This document shows, piece after piece, positions 11,294-56,979 of a stretch of DNA of 64,000 nucleotides. The stretch spans positions 7,737,291-7,801,290 of the forward strand of contig CM037872.1 of NCBI GenBank assembly GCA_021292105.1. Reading direction: 5' to 3'. The stretch is from Anadara kagoshimensis (lineage: Eukaryota; Mollusca; Bivalvia; Arcoida; Arcidae). The position numbers and the translations under genes are program-made. Each line of letters starts with the position of its first letter. Position 1 is the stretch's first letter. The notes under the pieces are model-generated. The model worked only from the letters and a program-made list of their open reading frames with translations. It had not been told where the DNA came from and did no database searches.

Positions 11294-14200
11294 AAAACCT
11301 AATGCCTTTGTCTTACATTAGGGCTGAAGATATAAAGAAGAAACTAGAATCGCCAACAAGAGCTCCAGCTAGTCCGAAACCACCACCAAAACACACTAAT
11401 GAAATAAGGCGCCCAATGGGGTATGGTGCTTTCTTCGACGAGGATGATACAAAGAAAGGTAGCCAACTGTCTGCCCAGGTAAATACAAGTGCTCCACCTA
11501 AAGCTAATGCTGCTCCTAGGAATGTGGTGAACGCCAATGGTCTGATAAATGTGGGTCCGTCCAGTTATTCAAAGGAAGAAATAGCGGTTTTGAGGTAAAT
11601 ATTTTAGATTACAATTGAATGTCTTTACACATGTTAAACCACTTCTCTTTTTTTCAAACATGTTTGTTTAGATGTGTTCACTAGATAGTTTTTTTTCTGT
11701 CATATTCAAACACAAACGTACTGACCCATACCAAACCACAATACCAAAAAATCAAAGTAAAAACTTTGAAAACTGACAAATTAAGTTAAACATGTGCACA
11801 TGCACTTTTAACAGGAAAGTGATGCTGGGTGCTCCAGAAGGGTAAGCACCTCCTGTGTAGCTAGCTGCATCCTGCCCATGTGTGAAGTCAAAACATAGTG
11901 TAGAATAGTAATTAGCTTTACCATGTTTACCGATTGATCTCACAAGTGTTCTTACACCAGGATTTGTTAAAGTGGAATTTTAGTCCAGACTGAGAGAGGC
12001 ACATAATCATTACTCTTGTCACTTATCACTGCTTGGCCACTAAGACTGCCTCTATACAGTGTAAACCGCTACTCAGTTGACAGATAGCAGGCCACGCCCA
12101 CAATATTCCAACAAAGGCCCAGCATGCTTGAATTAGACGCAAAAAAATGAAAACTCAGCCAAAATTGTGCCATTTAATAACATCACTGACACTTTACGTC
12201 ATAAGTTGCCTTGACGCTGCTTTGGTACTGTGATGGCGGCCAGTGTCGTAACATTGTGGGCGTGCTCGGCGAAAGATCAGTTGGAGTTGAGTTGAGTTGA
12301 GTAAAGGTGTTTAACATTGTCAATACCGATAATCTATTATTTGGCTATAATTTATAAACCTGTATTTAAAAATTAATTGCTGCTGTTGTGCTCAGTAATT
12401 AGTATAAAATCTTTGAATCCAGCATTTTCACAAAAAATAAAAACAGAACATCTTTCTGATAATTATATGTATAGGGATGCAACTCAGATCCAGTAAAAAT
12501 GTGTCAACTATTTGATGACATTTTTAAAAATGATCTGAGCAGATGGAATGATTAGTAACCTTGTTACAGCTCACAAAAATCATGATTTTTACCTCACTCT
12601 GTAAGATGAGTATTTACTAAACAATGCGTGAAGTTACCTACCATCCATTAAGTTGTGATCCGTGATACCCATTGACCAAAATCATTTTCACCTACAACTG
12701 TCCACTATTTAATGAATGGTTATTTAAAGCTGTATTTTATTTACACAAAAGAAGTGCAATGTTTTAAGTTAGAGAGAAGCCTCAAACTGTTCATTCTGTG
12801 AGAGAAAAAATTAATACAGTCAAACCTGTCTATAAAGGCCACCCAATGAAACCAGTAAAAGTGGCTTTATGGACAGATGGCCTTTATATACAGGTTAAAA
12901 TGACATGAACAAAGAACAATTGGGATACAGTTTAACTGGCCTTTATAAGCAGTTGGTCCTTATATAGAAGTGACCTTTAAGGCTGGTTCGACTGTATTGG
13001 CACTAATGCGCCTCTATTAATTCTTTCTCTCACAGAATGATCAGTTTTCGGCTTCTGTATAACGTAAAAGCCCATTCCATGAATCCAGAGATGGTTCAGT
13101 GTACTTGTATAGCATTGATGATGTTTGATTTATTTTCTTTTGTAGGAAAACCTCGTTTGTAAATGGTCGTGAATATGTGCCTTTCATGAGTGTGGATACA
13201 AAAGAAAGATTTGCTTTTCCCATTCAATACAGGTAAATTCTTGGGTTTGTTTAATTTTAATACCATGAAAAGATTTGCACTCTAGATTGACAAATCCATC
13301 AAAAGATCAATGAAAGATACTCCATCATTGCCTCTGATGAAGAATTAACAATTCCTTGCATCCTAGATAGAAAAATCCATAAAAAGAGAGGTGCAAGATA
13401 TCTCCATCTTGTACCCCCTGTGCAAGATAGCCTACATGCTGTTTTTCCCGCAAAATTTTATCAACAAAATCAGAGGTGTATTGAAAGTTGAAATTGATTT
13501 TAAATTGAAAAATTGTACTTTCTGATGCAAGAAATAGAATCAATCCCTACTTGTAGTGCCAGATAAGGAAATCTCAAGCCTCGTTCTGGACCAAATATTT
13601 TATATCTCGGGTTGAGATTTCCCTATCTGGCACCACAAGTTGTGGTAGATTCTATTAATCCGAAACCAATCAGGCTATTTATATTACAGCTGTATTAAGG
13701 CATATTGTCAGCCCTATTGTATCCTAACAGTGAACCAACTTGTTAGGTATCATCCCTTGATTAAACTGAACATGACTTGAATATGCTGAATAGTGATTAT
13801 CATAATTTACCAGAAATCTTTATTCTTGGTTTGGATCAGAGAGCAACTAGCTGTATGACCTTTGACCTTGTAAAACATAATTAGAAGTTGTGGTGTTTGT
13901 ACCCAAACTTCAATACTAACCTGTACAAGTAAAAAATAATGATCATTGCAGAAATTAGTGATTTTGTTTGCCTAAAACGACTAAACTTTCCCAATTTCCC
14001 AAAGCAACAGTGATATACCTGCAAATTAGATCTTGTTCTTACCCACAAAAGATTAGATAATGACACAATATAAAATCTTTGGAATGAGGAAGTTATTGCA
14101 AGCATACCATTATGCAGTTTGCTGTATTTCAGAAATTCAAATTTTTCACAATTTAAAAGGCAGAAAGTAGTTTTTAAAAAATATGTAACAAAATCTCTGG

Positions 14201-26057: not shown

Positions 26058-27822
26058 TGGGAGTGGGGTGTTGGGGTCAATTTTCATGCATGTAATTAAT
26101 TAAAAAATATTAAGAAAATTTTCCCCACTTGAATTAAAACATTTTACACCTAGAAAGTACAAATTGAAATAAATCACAAAAATTCACCCATGGCCAATGA
26201 TCAGGATGACAAAGTTGTGACTGTTTCTGGAGAGAGTTTCATGATCTGCAAACCTTTGTTTATTTTCAAAACAATGTATATTATAAAAGCAATGTTTTTT
26301 CTGTTAAAAATTCTAATATGATTTGTTGACTTGTACAGATGTAAGTGTAATGTTTATACAGTAAAACCTGTTGTAAAAACCACCTGTCTTTTTACCTGTG
26401 TAATTTAAATGCTAGTTACAATTAAGTTAATTATAAAATTCCCTTCCCTTGACACCTGAAATCGAACCTGGGTCACCCATTTGAAAATTGAGCACTCTAC
26501 TGTTTCGCCTAAAATGTACCCCATACAATTAAATTAGTTATTAAATTCCCTTCCCCTGTTGCCGGGAATTGATCTCTAGGTCGCCCATCTGTAAAGCAAG
26601 TGCTCTACTGTTTCGCCTCAAAGGCACCTCATAGGAGAGACAGTAGTAACATCTCTTAGCCTGTACATAGTACATACTATACCATGTAGCTATGTCGCTA
26701 CACCTGTCTTGTCACGTGTGTACCTGTCTGTTTACCTGTCTTTCAGTCTGTCCCCTCTGTTAGATCTGTGAACTATCTGGTGATTGTTATTTCTTGTTGT
26801 CAGTCATTCTCTACAATTTCATCCAGCTAATACTATGAACTCACTATGAGGTGACATTACAAACAAATCAAGCCAGAGTTGCAAAATAATTTTCAGCCTA
26901 GCATCCAGCACCTTCATGGTCTCTTAATTTCTCTGTTGTTTTCTTATTCTTTTTTTAATTATTTTATTTTTTTATATTTTTATTTTATTTATTTTATTAC
27001 TGTGTGCAAAGTTGTCATACTGCTATCCTATATATCTGCTGTTACGTTGGCACAATTATACTCTGCCATCCAAGTTTAAAACTGATCATATCATTACAGA
27101 CAAAACCTTTCCACAAAATTAAATTGTTTAAAAAGCATCATGCTGCTTACACCTAGTGTTTTAAAGCTAAATTGAAAAATATATTTTCCACAATTGGACC
27201 TATTGTCTTTGTTAATTCAACAACTAACACCAACTACCACTTGGCCATCATTTAAAACCTAACCTATAGGCAGTGGGAATGAACCATCACCTTATTCAGG
27301 AACCAGGTGGTTTTAGGAACCATGGTCCCCCTTTTGCAGGTGATTTTTTGAACCATGGTCCCTCTATTGCAGGTGGTTTTAGGAAAAAATGGTCCCTCTA
27401 TTACAGGTGGTTTTTATTTACAGGTTGGACTGTATCACAAAGGTTTGTTTGATCAAATTATGATCTACTGTGATATCATATAATATTTATTTTATATTAT
27501 TTGTCAATTTAAACTTATGAAATGTATCAAAATAATAATAAAAATAGAAATTTGACTTTAATTAGAGTGGTTATTTTTGCATCTAGTACGTTTCTATGAT
27601 TATTAGCTAATAATTAACAGCCACCTGTCTAGAAAGACCCTTTTTTCTGGTTCCCTTAGGGGGCCTCTATGCATTCGAAATAAATAACAAAATAGTTTTA
27701 TTAAACACTTTTTTAGTCCTTTCTAATTCTTATCAAACCGAAGATGGTAAGTTATTTGGTTTACGTCTCAAGGGCAAAATTCATTATAAAATTAAAGTTA
27801 TACAGAGCTTTGGCAGGTTACA
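26046..27822 (+). repeat. 1.8-kb segmental duplication, unit 1
   Basis: Begins tttctagatggttgggagtg inside a last-exon-derived repeat and ends gcaggttacac. It contains two minus-strand tRNA-like SINE heads (near 26455-26500 and 26570-26615) and a 'ggtggttttnngaaccatggtccc' minisatellite of about four units (27298-27420). No gene seen. Unit 2 follows at 27866. Confidence 0.95.
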
Positions 27823-27865: not shown

Positions 27866-29720
27866 TTTCTAGATGGTTGGGAGTGGGGTGTTGGGGTCAA
27901 TTTTCATGCATGTGATTAATTTAAAAATATTTAGCAAAATTTCCTCACTTGAATTAAAACATTTTACATCTAGAAAGTACAAATTGAAAAAAATCACAAG
28001 TATACACCCATGGTAAATGATCAGGATGAGTAGTTGTGACAGTGTTTCTGGAGAGAGTTTTATGATCTGCAAACCCTTGTTTATTTACAAAGCAGTGTAT
28101 ATTATATAAGCAATGTTTTTCTGTTATAAATTCTATTATGATTTGTTGACTTGTACAGATGTAAGTGTAATGTTCATACAGTAAAACCTGTTGTAAAAAC
28201 CACCTGTCTTTTTACCTGTGTAATTTAAATGCTAGTTACAATTAAGTTAATTATAAAATTCCCTTCCCTCGACGCCTGGAATCGAACCTGGGTCACCCGT
28301 TTGAAAAGTGAGCACTCTACTGTTTCGCCTAAAAGGTACCCCATACAATAAAATTAGTTATTAAATTCCCTTCCCCTGTTGCTGGGATTTGATCTCTAGG
28401 TTGCCCGTTTGTAAAGCAAGTGCTCTACTGTTTCGCCTAAAAGGCACCCCATAGGCGAGACAGTAGTAACATCTCTTAGCCTGTACATCATGTACATAGT
28501 ACATACTATACCATGTAGCTATGTCGCTACACCTGTCTTGTCACGTGTGTACCTGTCTGTTTGCCTGTCTTTCAGTCTGTCCCCTCTGTTAGATCTGTGA
28601 ACCATCTGGTGATTGTTATTTCTTGTTGTCAGTCATTCTCTACAATTTCATCCAGCTAATACTATGAACTCACTATGAGGTGACATTACAAACAAATCAA
28701 GCCAGAGTTGCAAAATAATTTTCAGCCTAGCATCCAGCACCTTCATGGTCCTCTTAATTTCTCTGTTGTTTTCTTATTCTTTTTTAATTATTTTATTTTT
28801 TTATATTTTTATTTTATTTATTTTATTACTGTGTGCAAAGTGTCATACTGCTGTCCTATATATCTGCTGTTACGTTGGCACAATTATACTCTGCCATCCA
28901 AGTTTAAAACTGATCATATCATTACAGACAAAACCTTTCCACAAAATTAAATTGTTTAAAAAGCATTGTGCTGCCTACACCTAGTGTTTTAAAGCTAAAT
29001 TGAAATATATATTTTCCACAATTAGACCTATTGTCTTTGTTAATTCAACAACTAACACCAATTACCACTTGGCCATCATTTAAAACCTAACCTATAGGCA
29101 GTGGGAATGAACCTCACCTTATTCAGGAACCAGGTGGTTTTAGGAACCATGGTCCCCTTTTGCAGGTGGTTTTTTGAACCATGGTCCCCCTTTTGCAGGT
29201 GGTTTTTTGAACCATGGTCCCCCTTTTGCAGGTGGTTTTATGAACAATGGTCCCTCTATTGCAGGTGGTTTTAGGAAAAAATGGTCCCTCTATTACAGGT
29301 GGTTTTTATTTACAGGTTGGCTGTATCACAAAGGTTTGTTTGATCAAATTATGATCTACTGTGATATCATATAATATTTATTTTATATTATTTGTCAATT
29401 TAAACTTATCTTTTTGAAATGTATCAAAATAATAATAAAAATAGAAATTTGACTTTAATTAGAGTGGTTATTTTTGCATCTAGTACGTTTCTATGATTAT
29501 TAGCTAATAATTAACAGCCACCTGTCTAGAAAGACCCTTTTTTCTGGTTCCCTTAGGGGGCCTCTATGCATTCGAAATAAATAACAAAATAGTTTTATTA
29601 AACACTTTTTTAGTCCTTTCTAATTCTTATCAAACCGAAGATGGTAAGTTATTTGGTTTACGTCTCAAGGGCAAAATTCATTATAAAATTAAAGTTATAC
29701 AGAGCTTTGGCAGGTTACAC
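27866..29720 (+). repeat. 1.8-kb segmental duplication, unit 2
   Basis: Nearly identical to unit 1. Scattered substitutions and small indels are visible, and the internal minisatellite is longer (29128-29305, about six units). The joining sequence 27822-27865 (cactgatttcaagtacagtt, ttaccctgtaaagaaaggg) is again calpain last-exon sequence. Confidence 0.95.
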
Positions 29721-38041: not shown

Positions 38042-41000
38042 TTATAATGCGTCACTACTGAATACATCGTCTTCCAAATCCTGTGATTTTTTACTGGGCG
38101 TCACAAAGGTTTTCTGTGTGTTTACTGTTCTACAATTACCATTACTTAGCATTGACCTTGCTTCTGAAGTTCTGTAAAGTGAAGAACTGTGCGAATATCT
38201 TCCATCTAAAACAGAAAAAAACAAGCAAAATCAGTTAATTAGATCCCAAGCTAGTAGGTAGTTTTTGTGATTTGTACTTATGTTCAAAGGGTAATAACTT
38301 TCGGGAGAATTAGCAAACCAACTCGGGTTAATGGTATATGCATTACCTGTGAATGTTGATGCTTTGCATCAAGTTTCGTGAAATAGTGTAGAATTACTCC
38401 GGACAAGAAGCGTCTGGGCGAACAGAAGTTCAAATTTTCTTCGAAAGTTGGGAAAGGGGGGGGGGCAATCATACACCTTTAATTTGTAAAATATTGAATC
38501 TAAACTGGAACAACAGTTGACATCATTAAGAATCACTGGTTCAAGTTATCTGTATTAGAAATTTACCAGAACCATTTGTCAAACTTTCGACAGGTCTGTA
38601 CTGTAATTAAAATGTTGAACTCATACAGATGTATCCCTATAGTCTTTCATGATGGATTATAAGTGCATTTAAGTATTCAATAGCAAGAAACTAGATTCCC
38701 CATAGCATGACAACCAAAATAGCCGCGAATAGATGTAATAATGTTATCGTATACCATTTTTCATTCAACCATAAAATACATTAAAAAATGGTATATGAGA
38801 ATTCACTAACTAGTATGGGCAATTAGAGCAGACATTTAAAAAAAAGAAATGAAAATTCATTGAAGATTTTCTGTAAACTACATGCTAGGCAAAAATTGCT
38901 GAGGACGGTTATAGTTCAAGTGAATGTACATCCTTGTGTGAGGTGGCGGTGGGGCTGTAGGTGCAGTGTATACGTGCTTCATACCTATGAAAATATTGTT
39001 TGTTTTAATGATAACACAACTTCAGAAAATTGAATACCACCTTTAAAATGTATTGATTTGAAAAGGGGGATGTTTACTTCCTCCTTAGTGCATTAAATAA
39101 ACAGAAACTAGAATACAAATTTAAAATTGGGAGTTATAAATTAAATAATGAAATAGTCATACATGGCACCTGTTGAATTACGAAATCTTTGAATTAGTAT
39201 GGTACATGACTATCGAAAATTAAATAAACAGACTACAATATAAATTTAAAATTAAGATTTATAATGTAAATAGTCGTATAGGGCACTTTTGAATTATGCA
39301 ATGTCTTTAAATTGATATGGTAGATGCCTATCGAAAATTAAACAAACAGACACTAGACAATAAATTTAAAATTAGGTTTATACTAGCAACAAGGCCACGC
39401 AATGTCTTTAAAATGGTACAGTCAGACCTGTCGAAAATTTAACATTTAGCTAGTTGCCGTTTCGCTCCCGCGAAAGTTATACAGTCCAACCTGCCCTAAA
39501 GGCCACCTCTATATAAGGGTCACCTGCTTATAAAGGCCAGTATAATTGTATCCTAATTGTTCTTTATTTATATTATTTGAACCTGTATATAAAGGCCACT
39601 TGTCCGTTAAGGCCACTTTTATTGGTTCCCTTGGGTGGCCTTTATAGACAGGTTTGACTGTACTTCAACAGTTATCTACCGTTTTGCACCTTTTCGGCCA
39701 CTATCTATCCACATGTCAACAATTCAACAGCTGAAACACCTTTTCATCAGCTTATTGTTAAATTTTCAGCAGGTGTGTACCGAAAGTAAATACTAAACTA
39801 CATGTAATCCTTCAGTGTGTACATGCTTATTTCTTTTGAGTTACGTAATGTTAAACAAAACACTTGTTAAAGTGGTTTTCTATTTCAATTTAGATTCTTG
39901 TGTTGTCCAGACTATGCTAGATCAGATTTTGTAAAAGTGCATGGTTATGTACATGTACATATAAGAGTTTTGTTCGCCCTTATACAGTACAGAACTGTCA
40001 AAAGTTTAACATTGGGTTAACGATAAGAAGTCGAAGTCAGTCTTCTGAGAGGTCGAGACATGGATAGCTAGTGGCCGAAAAGCCGCCGAGAGATAGATGA
40101 CAGCTGACAAAAAGCCGTCGAGAGATAGATGACAGCTGACAAAAAGCCGTCGAGAGATAGATGACAGCTGACAAAAAAACGTCGAGAGATAGATGACAGC
40201 TGACAAAAAGCCGTCGAGAGATAGATGACAGCTGACAAAAAGCCGTCGAGAGATAGATGACAGCTGACAAAAAGCCGTCGAGAGATAGATGACAGCTGAC
40301 AAAAAAACGTCGAGAGATAGATGACAGCTGACAAAAAGCCGTCGAGAGATAGATGACAGCTGACAAAAAGCCGTCGAGAGATAGATGACAGCTGACAAAA
40401 AGCCGTCGAGAGATAGATGACAGCTGACAAAAAACCGTCGAGAGATAGATGACAGCTGACAAAAAGCCGTCGAGAGATAGATAACAGCTGACAAAAAGCC
40501 GTCGAGAGATAGATAACAGCTGACAAAAAGCCGTCGAGAGATAGATGGCAACTGGCAAAAAGCTGTCGAGATATAGCTAAGGTGGGGCTTAGATGAGGTG
40601 CTCATCGACACTAATTCGCAAAGCTCGACTAGGGAGAGGCTGAAATATGTATACAGCCAGTAGCCGCCAAAAAGCTGTTGAGGGATAGATGACAGCTGGC
40701 AAAAAGCTGTCAAAAAAATAGATGGCAACTGGCAAAAAGCTGCTGAGAAAAAGCTAAGGTGTGACCAAGATGAGGTGCTCATCGACACTAATTCGCGAAG
40801 CTCGACTTTGGAGAGGCTGAAATATGTGTACAGCCAGTAGCCGCCAAAAAGCTGTCGAGAGATAGATAACATACATTGTATAGCGGAAAACTGTAGACAA
40901 GCAGAGATGAAATACTCATTTGACATTAATTCGCGAAGTTCGACTACGGAGAGGCTGAAAACAGCTGACGAATAGTTATCGAGATATACATGTAGACTAG

Positions 41001-44000
41001 TTAATTAAAGACCAGGATAAGTTAGTCTAGTGTTAAACTTTCAACGGATCTGTGCTGTTCTATTTCAGTTTAAATTTTTATGTTGTTCAGACTATCGTAC
41101 AACACACTAAACAAAAATGCACATAACCTTAGTATGGATTAACCCCACCCCCAGTCCCGATTTGTTTTAAGTTGTTCACGCGTAATATTTATTTAATCGA
41201 TCTCATACAGAACAAACCTGTCTAACGTTTAATACCGAATTAACGCAAAGGAGACCAAGTTCGGCTGTCCGAGATATGGATTACCAATGACAATGGCAGA
41301 AAAGCTATAGAAAGTTTGCCTAACAGCTGCCAAAAAGGGTTTCGAAATGTAGCTAACGAGGTGACCGAGATGAGCTGCCAATCCGGTATAAGTGCCATAT
41401 ACCTTTTTTTTTTTTTTTTTTTTTTTTAAATTATCATTCATTACATTCACAAATAGTTTATGACACGAGAATAAGCTAGATTGGTGTTACACTTTAGACA
41501 GGTCTGTACTGTATGAAGATTCCATCATTTGTTAACGGACTAATTATACCCCCCGCTTAAAAAGTGTGTGTGTTGGGGGTCGGGTGGGTATATAGTGATA
41601 GGGATGTCCTTCCGTCCTTCCGTTACACCTTAGGGTACCTATCTCTTATCCGCAACTCCTCCTAAACCTTTTAATGGATTTTCATGAAACTTTCACACAA
41701 TCTTTATGATATAATGTAGATGTGCACCTCCTATTTAAAATGTTGATGCGATGGATTTTTGGGAGCGGGGGGTATTTTTTGTGAGCTTGTGGCTCACAGT
41801 TTTTCTAGTTTTAATCTGTATTTACTAGAATGAATATATTGCTTATTGGAAATCAATGGGACGCAGATTTCCTAGCAACATTATTTGACAACTATTAGAA
41901 CCATCAAAGTTCAATCTAGAAAGGGCCATAAGGCCTTGCATTGGCCCCTTATTTTGACAAATGATCCCATTGGTAAGGCCTTAGAGGGCCACGTTAACAG
42001 CGTTCAGTCTAGCAGAGGCCATGAGACCATTGGTCCCTTATTTTGTCAAATGGTCCCATTACAACTCGAAAGTTTAAGTTTAATACTCTCATGAGTACCG
42101 TTTGGAGGAAATAACAATATTTCATCAATGTATTAAATAATATTAATGCACTAGTAAACCACGCACTCTATTTAAGACGTATCACTTGATGAATAACACA
42201 TGCACTGTACAGGCATGAGAGAGTGTTATTGAACGTTAAAACTAGTAAACAAAAATAAAATAAAATAAAATAAAATAATAAATAAATAAATAAATAAATA
42301 CAACTAAAAAGTAACCAATTAATAAACAATAACTGCACAAACTTCATTTACAACACATGTACATGCGCCGATACAAAAGAAACCATTTTTAAGGTGATTT
42401 CCGTTTAAAACTGAATACAGAAATATGTACATATACATGCGCTTTGCAAAAACCAATGGAAACAAGAACACCATATAACTGATTATAAAACCCTAGATTT
42501 TGAGAGGCATTGCTAACACAATAACATCCAGTTCTTTGGACATATCAAAACTAATAGCAAACTATCAAACCAATTTCAGCATATCATCACAATACTACTG
42601 CGCACGCACTTGGTTTGACAAAAATATATCATTTGGAGTACAATCTGGGGGTTGAAAAAAGGCGCATTGCAGAATGAAACACTAAAATAAATAATGAACA
42701 TAAAACAAAAAATAAACAATTAACAACGAGCATAACCAAATGTACACTAACTCATATTAAATCTATGTCTAAACGACAATCGTGCAGATACTTCTGTAAC
42801 CATAGTTACCACCGGATAAAGACAGGGCCCCTGTTACTTTGCAACAGTCAAACATCCCATAGATATGACTTCACTATGGTTACTGGACCCTATAGAAACT
42901 CTTTGATCAGAAACGGAAGCTGAAGCTCTTCTGGGGTTCAGGCTAGCGACTGATCTCCGGGGCCTTATAACAATCCTGCCATCAAAACCTATAAAATTGA
43001 TTTGAGGAGTACAGCAACTATTTTTAAAATACTTATTGTATCAGCCATCGGTTTTCCCCGATGCATAATGGTGTAGCTTGATTACCTTATATTTATAATA
43101 ATATCCGATTGATGCTTTAAAAACTGAATTACTCAAAATCATCTCTGGTTAGTATTTGAGCTAGATTCCAATCATTCAAGATGTAACATACTTAGTGATA
43201 GTAGGAGCATTTAGAAATGTTGACTCGGGGGATATCTCATTTCGAGGCGTGACAAGGCCCTCAGGAGGTTTTATGACCGTCATCACGTGTGGCGGGTGTT
43301 GCTGTCTGAACAAGGTGTGCTTACCCTTCCGGAGCACCTGACCTCAATTCTCTGGTGCAGGTTCATGTGTCATATACCAATTTTGAATTTAATAATAAAA
43401 TGCAACTTAATTGCAAGTTTTCAGTGTTTGCTTTGCTTTTGGGATTGTAGTTTAGACATTTGTGTTTGATTGCAAAACGGTACCACCACCTTTCATTGCT
43501 TTTCTTATGCCAAATTATCAAGCAATTTTCCCACCTGAACGTTTTAATAAAATGTAGAATTACAATAAAGACTCATTATAATGCTACTCGATGACTTTGC
43601 CACCCGCTTATGGCCTCTGTATTTTGAAATCCCAAAATATATACTTCTATTTAATTAGTTTTCTCTTATGGTCCTCCTTCTAATTACCACCTAACCTCTT
43701 TATAACGCCAAAATCTGACTGAACAAATAGTTGCAATCTTTTATCAATAAGAGGAAATCACATGGCACGTACTTACCCTTCCGCAGCACTTGGCCTCATT
43801 TCCATGGTGGAAGTTAAGGCATTTAACCTAACTTGTCAGTTTCAAATTTTTTACTTTGGTTCTGGATCGTGATTCGGACATGGATTAGTATGCTCGTTTT
43901 TGATGGTATAGTCGTGACGCCAGTGTTTTTTTTAAAGCTATAACTAACCTCGTGTGACTTCGTAAGCGTTTTTATACCAACACAGCAGCTCTTTGTAACC

Positions 44001-47000
44001 CTTTCTAAAGTCTGGAAATCTCCAGGCGTATATAATCGGATTACAAGCACTGTTCATATAGCCAAAACAATACGCCTGAAATCAGAAAGAAAAACATAAA
44101 CTAGAGCATTCTATTTAGAGACAAATACCCCGTCCCCCACGGCCAAGCGGACGACAGACAGACACTTAATTTGTTATGCATATAGAATTTAATAACAACC
44201 ACTGTTCATATAGCCAAAACAATACGCTTGAAATCAGAAAGAAAAACATAAACTAGAGCATTCTTTTTAGAGACAAATACCCCCGTCCCCAACGGCCAAG
44301 CGGACGACAGACAGACACTTAATTTGTTATGCATATAGAATTTAATAACAACCACTGTTCATATAGCCAAAACAATACGCTTGAAATCAGAAAGAAAAAC
44401 ATAAACTAGAGCATTCTTTTTAGAGACAAATACCCCCGTCCCCAACGGCCAAGCGGACGACAGACAGACACTTAATTTGTTATGCATATAGAATTGAATG
44501 ACAAGCACTGTTCATATAACCAAAACAATACGCCTGAAATCAGAAAGAAAAACATACACTAGAGCATTCTATTTAGAGATAAATACCCCCGTCCCCAAAG
44601 GCCAAGCGGACGACAGACAGACACTTAATTTGTTATGCATATAGAATTGAATGACAAGCACTGTTCATATAACCAAAACAATACGCCTGAAATCAGAAAG
44701 AAAAACATAAACTAGAGCATTCTATTTAGAGATAAATACCCCCGTCCCCAACGGCCAAGCGGACGACAGACAGACACTTAATTTGTTATGCATATAGAAT
44801 TGAATGACAAGCACTGTTCATATAACCAAAACAATACGCCTGAAATCAGAAAGAAAAACATAAACTAGAGCATTCTATTTAGAGATAAATACCCCCGTCC
44901 CCAACGGCCAAGCGGACGACAGACAGACACTTAATTTGTTATGCATATAGAATTGAATGACAAGCACTGTTCATATAACCAAAACAATACGCCTGAAATC
45001 AGAAAGAAAAACATAAACTAGAGCATTCTATTTAGAGATAAATACCCCCGTCCACAACGGCCAAGCGGACGACAGACAGACACTTAATTTGTTATGCATA
45101 TAGAATTGAATGACAAGCACTGTTCATATAACCAAAACAATACGCCTGAAATCAGAAAGAAAAACATAAACTAGAGCATTCTATTTAGAGATAAATACCC
45201 CCGTCCACAACGGCCAAGCGGACGACAGACAGACACTTAATTTGTTATGCATATAGAATTGAATGACAAGCACTGTTCATATAACCAAAACAATATGCCT
45301 GAAATAAGAATATTCTATACAGTCAAACCTATATATAAAGGCTACCCAAAGAAACCAGTAAAAGTGGCCTTTATGGACAGGTGGTCTTTATACACAGGCT
45401 CAAATAATATGAATAAAGAACAATTGGGATACAACTCTACTGGTTTTTATAAGAAGATAACCCTTATATATAGGTGTTCTTTAAGGCGGATTCGATTGTT
45501 TCTAAAACTGATGGATTGACTGAATGGGGTGCAAGCGAACTAGTCACCTCGGCCCCTTGTCAGCTTTTCGAGAGCTGCTGTCTATTTTTCGACAGTTTTT
45601 CGTCCACTAGCTATCAATATCTCGACCATACGACATCCGAGCTTCGATACCTTTCCGTTAGCTCAATGTTAAACTTTCGACAGGTCTGTACTGTGCTGAC
45701 AAAAATAACTTCACAGTATCAAAGAAGAAACACTTACGAAGAATCGTGAACATTATCAACACACGTTTCACAAATTTTCCGCAACAAATCTTCAAAAGAT
45801 AAACTTTCGGTAATAAATCAAGGTTGTTCTTTACAAAATGTAAAAAGAACCAAACGAAAGATATAGTGATCTCATCTATCGGCTTGTGGACGAACACTAT
45901 AGTAGTTGAGTTGAGTAATGGTGTTTTACGTCCCAGTCAAGAATACTTCACTTATATCGAGATGTCGCCAGCTGTAGGAAGAGATGCAGAAATTTTGCCT
46001 GTGCTTTGCGCTGATTGCATTAAACAGCAGGGTTCTTTATCTTATCATGGTACCTCGTTTATTTTAAGTTCCTATCGGAAAGAACCGTGGCTTTCATTTT
46101 GTAATGCCGAGTGCTTGGCGAAAGAACAGTCACTACCAACTTTCAAGTCTTGGGTCAGACCTTGTTGGCGTTCGAACCCACGACCTCTCACTTACGGAGC
46201 AAGCACTTTACCAACTGAGCTATCAAAGTGATGTCCAGCACTATAGGAGAAGTTTCCCCTGGAGATGTCCATAAAAGTCAGTTCATAGACAATATTCGAT
46301 ACAGGCTGACCAATCAAATTAATTTGTCCAGATCGGTGCATTTTTAGTGCGCAAGGTTGCCATTTGGGTACTTTTTTATCGTTAAGTGTTTGATTTTGGT
46401 ACAATTTTCAAACAAAAGTTAGAATGTTTAATACTTTTACATGTAATTTATAAAATCCGTCAAAATGGGAAAAATCCAATAATTTCATTTTATCCGTCCG
46501 TTTTTTTCGTTTATATGGTACAAAACTGTCAAAAACGGATAAATCCGTCGAATTGATCAGCCTGTTGATATATTGACACCTCTGATACTTACTAAAGGGT
46601 TAAGATAGACGGGTATATCCTGTTTGTTTCGTATAACTGTAGCGAAGTTGATGTAAAACAGATACGGTAACCAGCACAGCAGAAAACATATCAAAACTAT
46701 AAATAATGTACATGATACGCCATTATCACGTGCCTGGATCTGATCACTGTCCCGGATGGAGTTGTTTCTTCGGAATGTCTCGCTTTTCTTTATCATCTTA
46801 AATATTTTAATATATGCAAACGTCATTATTCCGAATGGAATGACTAAATTTATCGTCAAGTTGAGCACGTGCAGTATGTAAGTTTTCAGTTCCGCTTCCG
46901 GATATGGCGGGCCGCATTGCATTGTCTTTGGTTTTATACAGCTTTTCCTAGCCCGTATGTTGTAACCACGGCAAATACTAACCCCCATGCCCATGCAGCG

Positions 47001-47494
47001 GCAATCATAATAAAGCACTTGACATTGGTGAAATGATAATTCATTCGAGACAGACATATATATTTATGGATAGCTATATACATCAGAGTGTGAATGGACG
47101 TCAGGAAACACGTGGTGTTTAGAAAACTGTTGAAAGTGCAAAACCAGGCGGGAAAAATCCATGTTCCTTTAATAAGAACAGTCAAAGAAAACGGAATCAT
47201 TAATATTCCAACGAATAAATCGGCTACTGCTAAATTACATAAAAATAAATTGGTTTTACTGCTGTCATCACGCATGCGCCGATTCTTAAGTATCACCAGT
47301 ATCACTAATAAATTTCCAAAAAAGGCGAATAACATAGAAAAAACTAACAGGCTCCCAAATCCGATCGTCATTGGTAGATTAAAGTAATGTATGTCGTTTA
47401 CGCCTGTGCTGTTAAGTAACGGTAATTCCGTGTATCCGGATATGGAACTATTTTCCATGTCGTTCCCGTATCCGGTTTGGGAACTATTTTCCAT
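38042..47494 (-). CDS. Class A (rhodopsin-like) G-protein-coupled receptor
   Basis: Three minus-strand exons: 46593-47494, 43949-44075 and 38042-38205, joined in phase 0 and phase 1, about 397 residues. Visible class A marks: N-glycosylation motifs before TM1, GNLLVILVI in TM1, NLAVADLF in TM2, Cys119 at the top of TM3, Trp in TM4, the loop cysteine TMQCGPP, CWLPY in TM6 and NPIIY in TM7. The DRY position reads HKY (143-145), which is unusual. The short N-terminus repeats itself (MENSSQTGY, MENSSISGY). The C-tail is Ser/Thr-rich and ends EDDVFSSDAL. Exon 1 has one apparent frameshift near 46936: GLGKAV meets TAA where KPKTMQC should continue. The ligand cannot be told; general layout resembles amine-type receptors. 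Without exon 3, exon 2 could read on to TAG at 43944. Confidence 0.9.
38281..38470 (-). mobile_element. Dispersed element D, copy 3
   Basis: Reverse-strand match to 20354 and 24528 (ttcaaagggtaataactttc; caagtttcgtgaaatagtg). It lies in GPCR intron 2. The stretch 38480-39420 beyond has a few degenerate repeats of gaaaattaaataaacagac type and no gene. Confidence 0.65.
39480..39662. mobile_element. MITE-B, copy 2
   Basis: Terminal repeats tacagtccaacctgccctaa and tttatagacaggtttgactg. Interior 'tataaaggccac' motifs and core cctaattgttcttta (reverse orientation of the core). Partial TIR-A sequence (acctgtcgaaaatttaac) directly precedes it. Confidence 0.9.
39983..41058. mobile_element. TIR-A element with 32-bp minisatellite
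   Basis: Left end tacagtacagaactgtcaaa, right end gtgttaaactttcaacggat through ctgtgctgt. Inside, about 15 units of gacaaaaagccgtcgagaga plus tagatgacagct (40082-40560), then longer degenerate repeats containing attcgcgaagctcgac. The 173-306-codon minus-strand frames are products of a 32-bp period that is open in all three frames, not genes. GPCR intron 2. Confidence 0.9.
41206..41513. mobile_element. TIR-A element, single-unit core, with poly-T
   Basis: Left end tacagaacaaacctgtctaa, core gttcggctgtccgagatatg and cagctgccaaaaag, right end gtgttacactttagacaggt through actgta. A run of about 24 T interrupts it at 41404-41427. Confidence 0.85.
41545..41815 (+). mobile_element. Dispersed element ending in gtttttctagtt
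   Basis: Starts ataccccccgctt-like and runs through gtccttccgtccttccg, aatggattttcatgaaactt and gcttgtggctcacag to tttttctagtt. Shorter relatives appear near 16530 and 24855. Class unclear; no coding capacity. Confidence 0.5.
42250..42300. repeat. (AAAAT)n/(AAAT)n microsatellite
   Basis: Tandem aaaat then aaat units in GPCR intron 2. The rest of 41820-43270 shows no recognisable feature. Confidence 0.9.
43280..43840 (+). repeat. Two copies of the 'cacgtggcgggtg' repeat
   Basis: 43280-43370 (cacgtgtggcgggtgttgct, cttacccttccggagcacct) and 43768-43840 (cttacccttccgcagcactt, tggtggaagttaaggcattt). They lie in GPCR intron 2, just downstream of exon 2. Confidence 0.6.
44076..45310 (-). repeat. 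Eight 153-bp units each carrying a truncated GPCR TM7 exon
   Basis: Copies of cactgttcatat recur at 44200, 44353, 44506, 44659, 44812, 44965, 45118 and 45271; the genuine exon has it at 44049. Spacing is 153 bp except the first at 151. In transcript order each unit has a pyrimidine tract and acceptor (tttctttctgatttcag) followed by AYCFGYMNSAC, then HSILYA and a stop in most units. The units at 44200 and 44353 have the acceptor altered to tttcaag and a different end. All lie upstream of the real TM7 exon. Confidence 0.93.
45318..45500. mobile_element. MITE-B, copy 3
   Basis: Left end tacagtcaaacctatatata, core gaacaattgggatacaactc, right end ggcggattcgattgt. It lies directly next to the last 153-bp unit. 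GPCR intron 1. Confidence 0.85.
45536..45694. mobile_element. TIR-A element, right part
   Basis: cagcttttcgagagctgctg, ctagctatcaatatctcgac, then the terminus gttaaactttcgacaggtct through actgt. The left terminus is missing. GPCR intron 1. Confidence 0.75.
45903..46237 (-). mobile_element. SINE-1, full length, minus strand
   Basis: Plus strand shows the tail first (gttgagtaatggtgttttac, cccagtcaagaatacttcac), the body, then the head reversed (gttcgaacccacgacctctc, ctttaccaactgagctat). GPCR intron 1. Confidence 0.88.
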
Positions 47495-56163: not shown

Positions 56164-56979
56164 TGCGGACCTGCCAAAAGTTTAACACTTGGTTAACAAA
56201 AAAAGTCGAAGCTCGCTGTCGAGTTTCCGAGATATGGATACAAAAGCTGCCGAGAGATATACGGCAGCTGTCAAAAAGCTGTCGAGAGATAGAAAACAGC
56301 TGCCAAAAAGCTGTCGATAGATAGATAACAGCTGGCAAAAAGATGTTGAGAGATAGATAACAGCTGCTAAAAAGCTGTCGAGAGATAGATAACAGCTGCT
56401 AAAAAGTTGTCGAGAGATAGATAACAGCTGCCAAAAAGCTGTCGAGAGATAGATAACAGCTAGCTGCCAAAAAGCTGTCGATAGATAGATAACAGCTGCT
56501 AAAAAGCTGTCGACAGATTAGATAACAGCTGCCAAAAATCTGTCGAGAGATAGATAACAGCTCCCAAAAAGCTGTCGACAGATTAGATAACAGCTGCCAA
56601 AAATCTGTCGAGAGATAGATAACAGCTGCTAAAAAGCTGTCGAGAGATAGATAACAGCTGCCAAAAAGCTGTCGACAGATTAGATAACAGCTACCAAAAA
56701 TCTGTCGAGAGATAGATAACAGCTGCCAAAAAGCTGTCGAGAGATAGATAAAAGCTGCCAAAAAGCTGTCGAGAGATAGATAAAAGCTGCTAAAAAGCTG
56801 TGGAGAGATAGATAACAGCTGCTAAAAAGCTGTCGAGAGATAGATAACAGCTGCCAAAAAGCTGTCGAGAGATAGATAACAGCTGCTAAAAAGCTGTGGA
56901 GAAATGTTGTGGGGCCTAGGTTAGCTGCCGATTTGGCACTTATTCGTTAGCTTAGTGTTAAACTTTTGACAGGTCTGTA
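56164..56979. mobile_element. TIR-A element with 32-bp minisatellite (largest)
   Basis: Left end gcggacctgccaaaagttta, right end cttagtgttaaacttttgac plus aggtctgta. About 21 units of gctgtcgagagatagataac plus agctgccaaaaa at 56250-56900, with cgacagattag variants in alternate units. Long minus frames are repeat artefacts. Confidence 0.92.

Follow-up and report, generated by a model that had tools for sequence, protein, structure and literature searches.

We characterized a 64,000-nt stretch of the Anadara kagoshimensis genome (contig CM037872.1, positions 7,737,291–7,801,290; hereafter the window), the minus strand of which carries a class A GPCR gene with an array of near-identical units ahead of its TM7 exon (Table 1). 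Exon 1 encodes TM1–TM6 and consists, as assembled, of two open pieces that both match Pfam 7tm_1 (E = 7.3e-23 and 1.4e-12); its best solved relatives in the PDB include the beta-1 adrenergic and histamine H2 receptors, in support of the GPCR identity that an earlier note on this DNA had read from the letters alone. The two pieces are separated by a frameshift within about 46935–46957, between the end of TM4 and KPKTMQC, where the window gene has 23 nt and four paralogous loci (L040, L041, L042 and L075) have 24. Exon 1 is open throughout in these four, and the assembled frame of the window gene closes in the second outer loop; the frameshift is either a recent lesion or an assembly error. Apart from it, the receptor appears intact, and its differences from L040 (0.41, 0.29 and 0.66 at codon positions 1, 2 and 3) have the pattern expected of a gene long under constraint. 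At what we take to be the site of the usual DRY motif (47060–47098), HKY or HKC is read in the window gene and in exon 1 of all five paralogues.

Five paralogous TM7 exons lie on the same contig (69–74% peptide identity); the remaining matches to the TM7 exon, the units aside, are more distant GPCR-like stretches (35–50% identity). Exon 1 was recovered for the five paralogues; in each of them, an intron of 622 to 8,123 nt that opens with a GTAAGT donor (5/5) occupies the same position, and the corresponding intron of the window gene is 2,517 nt long. Donor and acceptor occupy the same place in all five paralogues, which bears out the exon boundaries given by the earlier note. The TM7 exon is 3 nt shorter in the paralogues (124 nt, computed for L040 and L041 and counted by hand for the others), and is followed by a donor in every gene copy (GTTAGT in the window gene, GTAAGA in one paralogue, GTAAGT in two and GTAGGT in two). 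Because this phase-1 donor is found in six of six genes, the TM7 exon is internal, and its reading as a terminal exon with a stop at EVTRG* was ruled out. Exon 3 of the receptor gene was not located.

One paralogous locus (L043; contig 16, 13727000–13736500) is a copy of the L042 receptor with a split exon 1. The second half is adjacent; some 30 kb away lies a matching first half (L067, about 13.76 Mb), which probably belongs to the same gene. The second half is preceded by large minisatellites of 30 and 33 bp, with 73 and 100 copies, the latter being those in the fetched stretch, to the end of which the 33-bp array runs.

Table 1. Features of the receptor locus and of the related arrays (window positions unless a locus is named; the slash marks the exon–intron boundary)
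Feature	Position	Strand	Evidence or location
Exon 1, TM1–TM6, ends ..VYLNPL, 1-nt frameshift	46593..47494	−	Pfam 7tm_1, PDB, paralogues
Donor TTA/GTAAGT, phase 0, intron before TM7	46587..46592	−	Sequence and 5/5 paralogues
Dispersed repeat abutting first unit	45317..45499	−	83–84% matches at 39481–39662 and 12814–12995 of window
Eight-unit array	44076–45298	−	
Unit 1, AG kept, differing intron end	45146..45298	−	
Units 2–5, AG kept, preceding 40 nt identical to those of the real exon	44534..45145	−	
Unit 6, AG kept	44381..44533	−	
83-nt terminal repeat fragment in the middle of each unit (example: unit 6)	44403..44485	−	Genome matches and alignment
Units 7 and 8, AA for AG, earlier stop NSGCY*	44076..44380	−	
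Real TM7 exon, 127 nt, AYCFGYMNSACNPIIYAWRFPDFRKGYKELLCWYKNAYEVTR and first base of next codon	43949..44075	−	
Donor GAG/GTTAGT after TM7 exon, phase 1	43943..43948	−	Matching place in five paralogues
79-bp donor arrays	L040:6782–8844; L041:6595–7460		Contig 16, about 13.26 and 13.78 Mb

The acceptor-side array

Tandem repeat analysis (TRF) placed the 153-bp array at 44029–45310, with 8.4 copies and 97% matches. Its head-to-tail, near-identical units, well above the unit size of about 10 bp from which such arrays are called minisatellites, stand ahead of the real TM7 exon in the number that the earlier note had counted, eight. A 25-nt core of the unit (up to three mismatches) occurs nine times in the window, once in each of the eight units and once in the real exon; 100 shuffles contained no copy. 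The unit length of 153 bp reported before holds for U1–U7, but U8 has 152 bp. From U1 to U8, counted from the side of exon 1, the first exon-like bases lie at 45298, 45145, 44992, 44839, 44686, 44533, 44380 and 44227. The full 153-bp unit was found at this locus alone in a genome search of 1.115 Gb (36-contig assembly, in which the window lies on contig 16), and none of the five paralogous introns contains the array (unit search of L039–L043 and TRF). The search gave one copy of the array locus in the assembly. An open reading frame through the array was also considered and rejected: although 153 is a multiple of 3, every one of the six frames contains 15 to 39 stops.

An AG acceptor is retained in six of the eight units (U1–U6), as had been stated, and is replaced by AA in U7 and U8, the two units closest to the real exon. 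The HSILYA-stop ending that had been ascribed to every unit belongs to U1–U6 only, which read AYCFGYMNSACHSILYA followed by a stop at codon 18; U7 and U8 instead read AYCFGYMNSGCY and stop at codon 13. The last 40 nt before U2–U5 match those before the real exon at 40 of 40 positions and those before U6 at 39, and those before U7 and U8 show two differences, the lost AG included. Over the last 20 intron bases, the agreement with the real acceptor region is 20/20 for U2–U6, 19/20 for U7 and U8, and 12/20 for U1, the intron end of which is strongly divergent because another dispersed repeat stops about 16 nt upstream of its AG. Unit 8 terminates in the real acceptor AG, and the array joins the real exon without a break.

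Unit composition and origin

Each unit combines the first 48 nt of the exon with an 83-nt end piece of a dispersed repeat and the last 22 nt of the intron. The earlier note had derived the unit from the exon itself, which stands for the exon start and the intron end, but not for the 83 of 153 nt that belong to the repeat. A genome query with two units gave 43 matches, of which 4 fell in this array, 1 in a paralogous TM7 exon and 38 in the repeat part (at least 38 places, 40 of the 93 candidates having been scored), some of the last extending up to 13 nt into the adjoining intron end. In a sample of 20 of the 38 places, all 20 repeat copies aligned to unit 6; 14 of the 20 alignments stop at unit positions 131–133 and 11 begin at positions 48–51. 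Three of the repeat loci, when compared with each other, are alike beyond the piece present in the window on one side only, and because their homology continues on that other side alone, the unit middle is identified as a terminal fragment of the repeat. An origin of the unit middle from the exon 2 tail, exon 1 or the early intron, for which the matches listed were short and none had an E-value below 0.5, was rejected because the unit middle is dispersed repeat.

Homology to the exon beyond NSAC, which had been claimed before, is genuine (12/18 nt, for which 200,000 shuffles of the tail of the unit itself give a p of about 2.5e-4), and ends at about exon nt 48, where the repeat fragment starts. 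A derivation of HSILY from the repeat was rejected, given that by eye the repeat does not align to the left of GCATAAC, whereas the exon does. The TAA stop of U1–U6 sits in the repeat part of the unit.

Homogenisation between units and real exon is patchy: they differ at 1 of the 55 nt spanning the splice site (22 intron and 33 exon) and at 5 of the next 15 nt (Fisher p = 0.0013), and the real exon has GGC at exon nt 13–15 in common with U7 and U8, against GGT in U1–U6. Both observations suggest that array and exon have exchanged sequence and that the exchange broke off near exon nt 33. We infer the following order of events. The terminal piece of a common dispersed repeat would have inserted some 48 nt into the TM7 exon, with duplication of a target of about 70 nt (the 22 nt of intron end with its acceptor and the 48 nt of exon) on either side of the repeat. 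The downstream duplicate would have retained the whole exon with an intact acceptor, and the upstream one would have become an acceptor followed by 48 nt and the repeat, with the stop supplied by the repeat. Unequal exchange between the 70-nt flanks could then have multiplied the 153-bp unit and also traded sequence between the array and the leading 33 nt of the real exon. Because 70 nt would be a long target duplication for most mobile elements and the repeat is of an unclassified family, a simple tandem duplication with later insertion or repair filler is just as possible an origin.

Predicted consequences for splicing

We infer the consequences for splicing from the positions of acceptors, stops and donors. 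The acceptors of U1–U6 are all in the right phase and each would yield the same end, HSILYA*; a predicted splice to any of them ends the protein inside the NPxxY region, in agreement with the earlier note. Its description of the units as truncated exons is not supported in that form. Since they pass into the real exon without interruption, splicing to a unit AG would mainly lengthen that exon, and the units would serve chiefly as alternative acceptors of one longer exon, not as exons that have their own end. The predicted length with a unit acceptor runs from 585 nt for U6 to 1,350 nt for U1, against 127 nt for the real exon. By an approximate donor table, the best GT inside a unit (ggg/GTATTT) scores −1.78, a value equalled by 18% of the GTs in the window, the donor after the TM7 exon scores 3.56 (1.5% of window GTs as good) and the exon 1 donor scores 0.0 (9.8%). 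The weakness of the in-unit GT is thus relative, the gene's own exon 1 donor being not strong by the same table. Use of the units as cassettes appears unlikely, and none of them is a complete open unit of the kind found in mutually exclusive exon arrays, given the stop at codon 13 or 18.

A stop more than 50–55 nt ahead of an exon junction usually directs a transcript to decay. Provided that exon 1 is in frame and that splicing uses the donor at 43948, the stop would lie 531–1,296 nt before the exon 2 donor junction for U1–U6, a placement that resembles that of poison exons, whose in-frame stop precedes a later junction by more than about 55 nt (here a predicted junction, exon 3 being unlocated). 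Conservation beyond one gene, another attribute of poison exons, was not found among the five paralogous introns. Because a donor follows the real exon in six of six gene copies, unit-spliced RNA is a predicted decay substrate, and use of a unit AG is predicted to favour mRNA decay over a stable short receptor.

According to a survey of alternative acceptors (PMC9225289), the upstream of two acceptors is generally preferred, but significantly less so between long introns, where the authors conclude that the sites closest across the exon are favoured. A tolerated array and a poisoned gene are both possible, since the upstream preference is general yet reduced with long introns; of the two, we favour the tolerated array. 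An upstream acceptor of identical sequence usually competes with the real one, and the expected outcome is lower use, not silence. By exon definition, the 127-nt real exon should compete well against exons of 585–1,350 nt.

A donor-side array in two paralogues and the minisatellite background

In L040 and L041, the opposite edge of the same TM7 exon is repeated, with a 79-bp unit that comprises about 34 nt of exon end, the junction CATGTG/GTAGGT and some 45 nt of intron. An alignment of the two loci covers 4.7 kb, including part of the array, at 98.6%; they are either alleles that were assembled apart or recent duplicates. Despite this near-identity, L040 has 26 GTAGGT donor motifs and L041 has 11; at the edge of an exon, the number of units thus changes fast in this genome. 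The donor-side array is independent of the acceptor-side array, and is no proof of function.

Arrays with a period of at least 30 and at least three copies make up 8.5% of the window (6.5% without the 153-bp array) and 4.4% of 94 kb across 30 other loci, which were chosen by receptor or repeat hits and not at random. Because minisatellites are common here, both splice-site arrays may be background. With roughly a dozen independent splice junctions, finding one or two such hits is, in our judgement, near expectation, and the recurrence of splice-site arrays was rejected as proof of function with 4–9% of the DNA in arrays. In a literature search that was not exhaustive, bivalves included, none of the titles listed named an array of exon-edge units.

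Rival interpretations

The reading that we regard as probable is that the array is a repeat-seeded intronic minisatellite in exchange with the exon, an unstable by-product and not a designed source of short receptors, any role in splicing being putative. What counts against this explanation is the position of the AG losses in the two units next to the real exon, where selection against competing acceptors would be expected to place them, though those of U7 and U8 look like one mutation that was copied once. A harsher outcome, in which the upstream acceptors capture splicing, most of the RNA carries the early stop and the gene is, or is becoming, a pseudogene, seems unlikely. It would agree with the acceptor regions of U2–U5, which equal the real one at every one of 40 positions and are nearer the donor, with the 1-nt frameshift in an exon 1 that is open in L040, L041, L042 and L075, and with the general preference for upstream acceptors in the survey (PMC9225289), but the same source has that preference significantly reduced between long introns, and the otherwise intact receptor, with its codon-position differences from L040, speaks against it. 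We consider it quite improbable that minisatellites have captured the splice sites of the exon twice and act as heritable, fast-mutating rheostats of productive versus decay-bound receptor RNA, a role that is conceivable because unit number differs between near-identical copies.

The earlier note had proposed that the units supply truncated receptors in an amount tunable by copy number, or that they act as a splicing decoy. In favour of this, six acceptors are kept, all in the right phase and all leading to the same HSILYA* end; an intronic tandem repeat is reported in connection with TERT splicing (PMC11830802), and dominant-negative truncated GPCR splice forms are known (PMC3477067). The observation underlying the proposal is sound, but its functional side is weakened by the continuity of the units with the real exon (with only a weak possible donor inside them), by the donor after that exon in six of six genes, which predicts decay and not a stable protein, by the absence of the array from all five paralogous introns and by the frameshift that, as assembled, lies upstream of the array; we hold it to be very doubtful. 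An assembly error behind the array, its number of units or the frameshift is likewise very doubtful. Near-identical tandem units are difficult to assemble and the frameshift amounts to one missing base, yet U1, U2, U5, U6, U7 and U8 each differ from U3/U4, as in a true array, and the locus was found once in the genome search.

Relation to known systems

Poison exons couple splicing to nonsense-mediated decay, and the array has in common with them an in-frame stop soon after the acceptor, ahead of a further junction; it differs in being continuous with the real exon and absent from the paralogues, and its use is putative. Arrays of mutually exclusive exons of the Dscam type likewise present tandem exon-like units after one donor, but those described here are incomplete, contain a stop and cannot take the place of the TM7 exon. 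Introners are elements that are spliced out and can use target duplications for their splice sites, whereas the only candidate donors in the fragment inserted here are weak. Intron gain by tandem duplication (PMC4974935) and introners (PMC9860276) resemble the array in the duplication of a splice-site-bearing exon stretch around an insert; in contrast to those systems, no new working intron is evident here, the donor is weak and the unit has been multiplied. Intronic minisatellites linked to splicing, such as VNTR6-1 in TERT intron 6 (PMC11830802), similarly consist of head-to-tail units able to vary in number, but each unit here bears an acceptor together with codons from the start of the neighbouring exon. 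A splice-acceptor minisatellite that appears to exchange sequence with a coding exon, and has a donor-side counterpart in paralogues, would be unusual.

If the acceptors are used, the locus would be a natural version of the duplicated-splice-site experiment, a classic design, in which as many as six competitors stand at set distances, five being matched in sequence, and for which the paralogous donor-side arrays of differing length offer a comparison. If they are unused, the exon is chosen despite an adjoining string of equally good acceptors, and the locus would document a coding exon that survived a repeat insertion and then exchanged sequence with the resulting minisatellite.

Other repeats in the window

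The intron between exon 1 and the array also contains an element at 45904–46230 that looks like a SINE, with a tRNA-like start (GATAGCTCAGTTGGTAAAGTG...) and related sequence at no fewer than ten places in the window (72–82% identity). Separate arrays at 40078–40576 and 56242–56902 have a nearly identical 32-bp unit, AAAAGC(C/T)GTCGAGAGATAGAT..ACAGCTG. The same series of A+T-rich and 33-bp repeats occurs at 26944–27414 and 28774–29306, about 1.83 kb apart, which suggests a local duplication.
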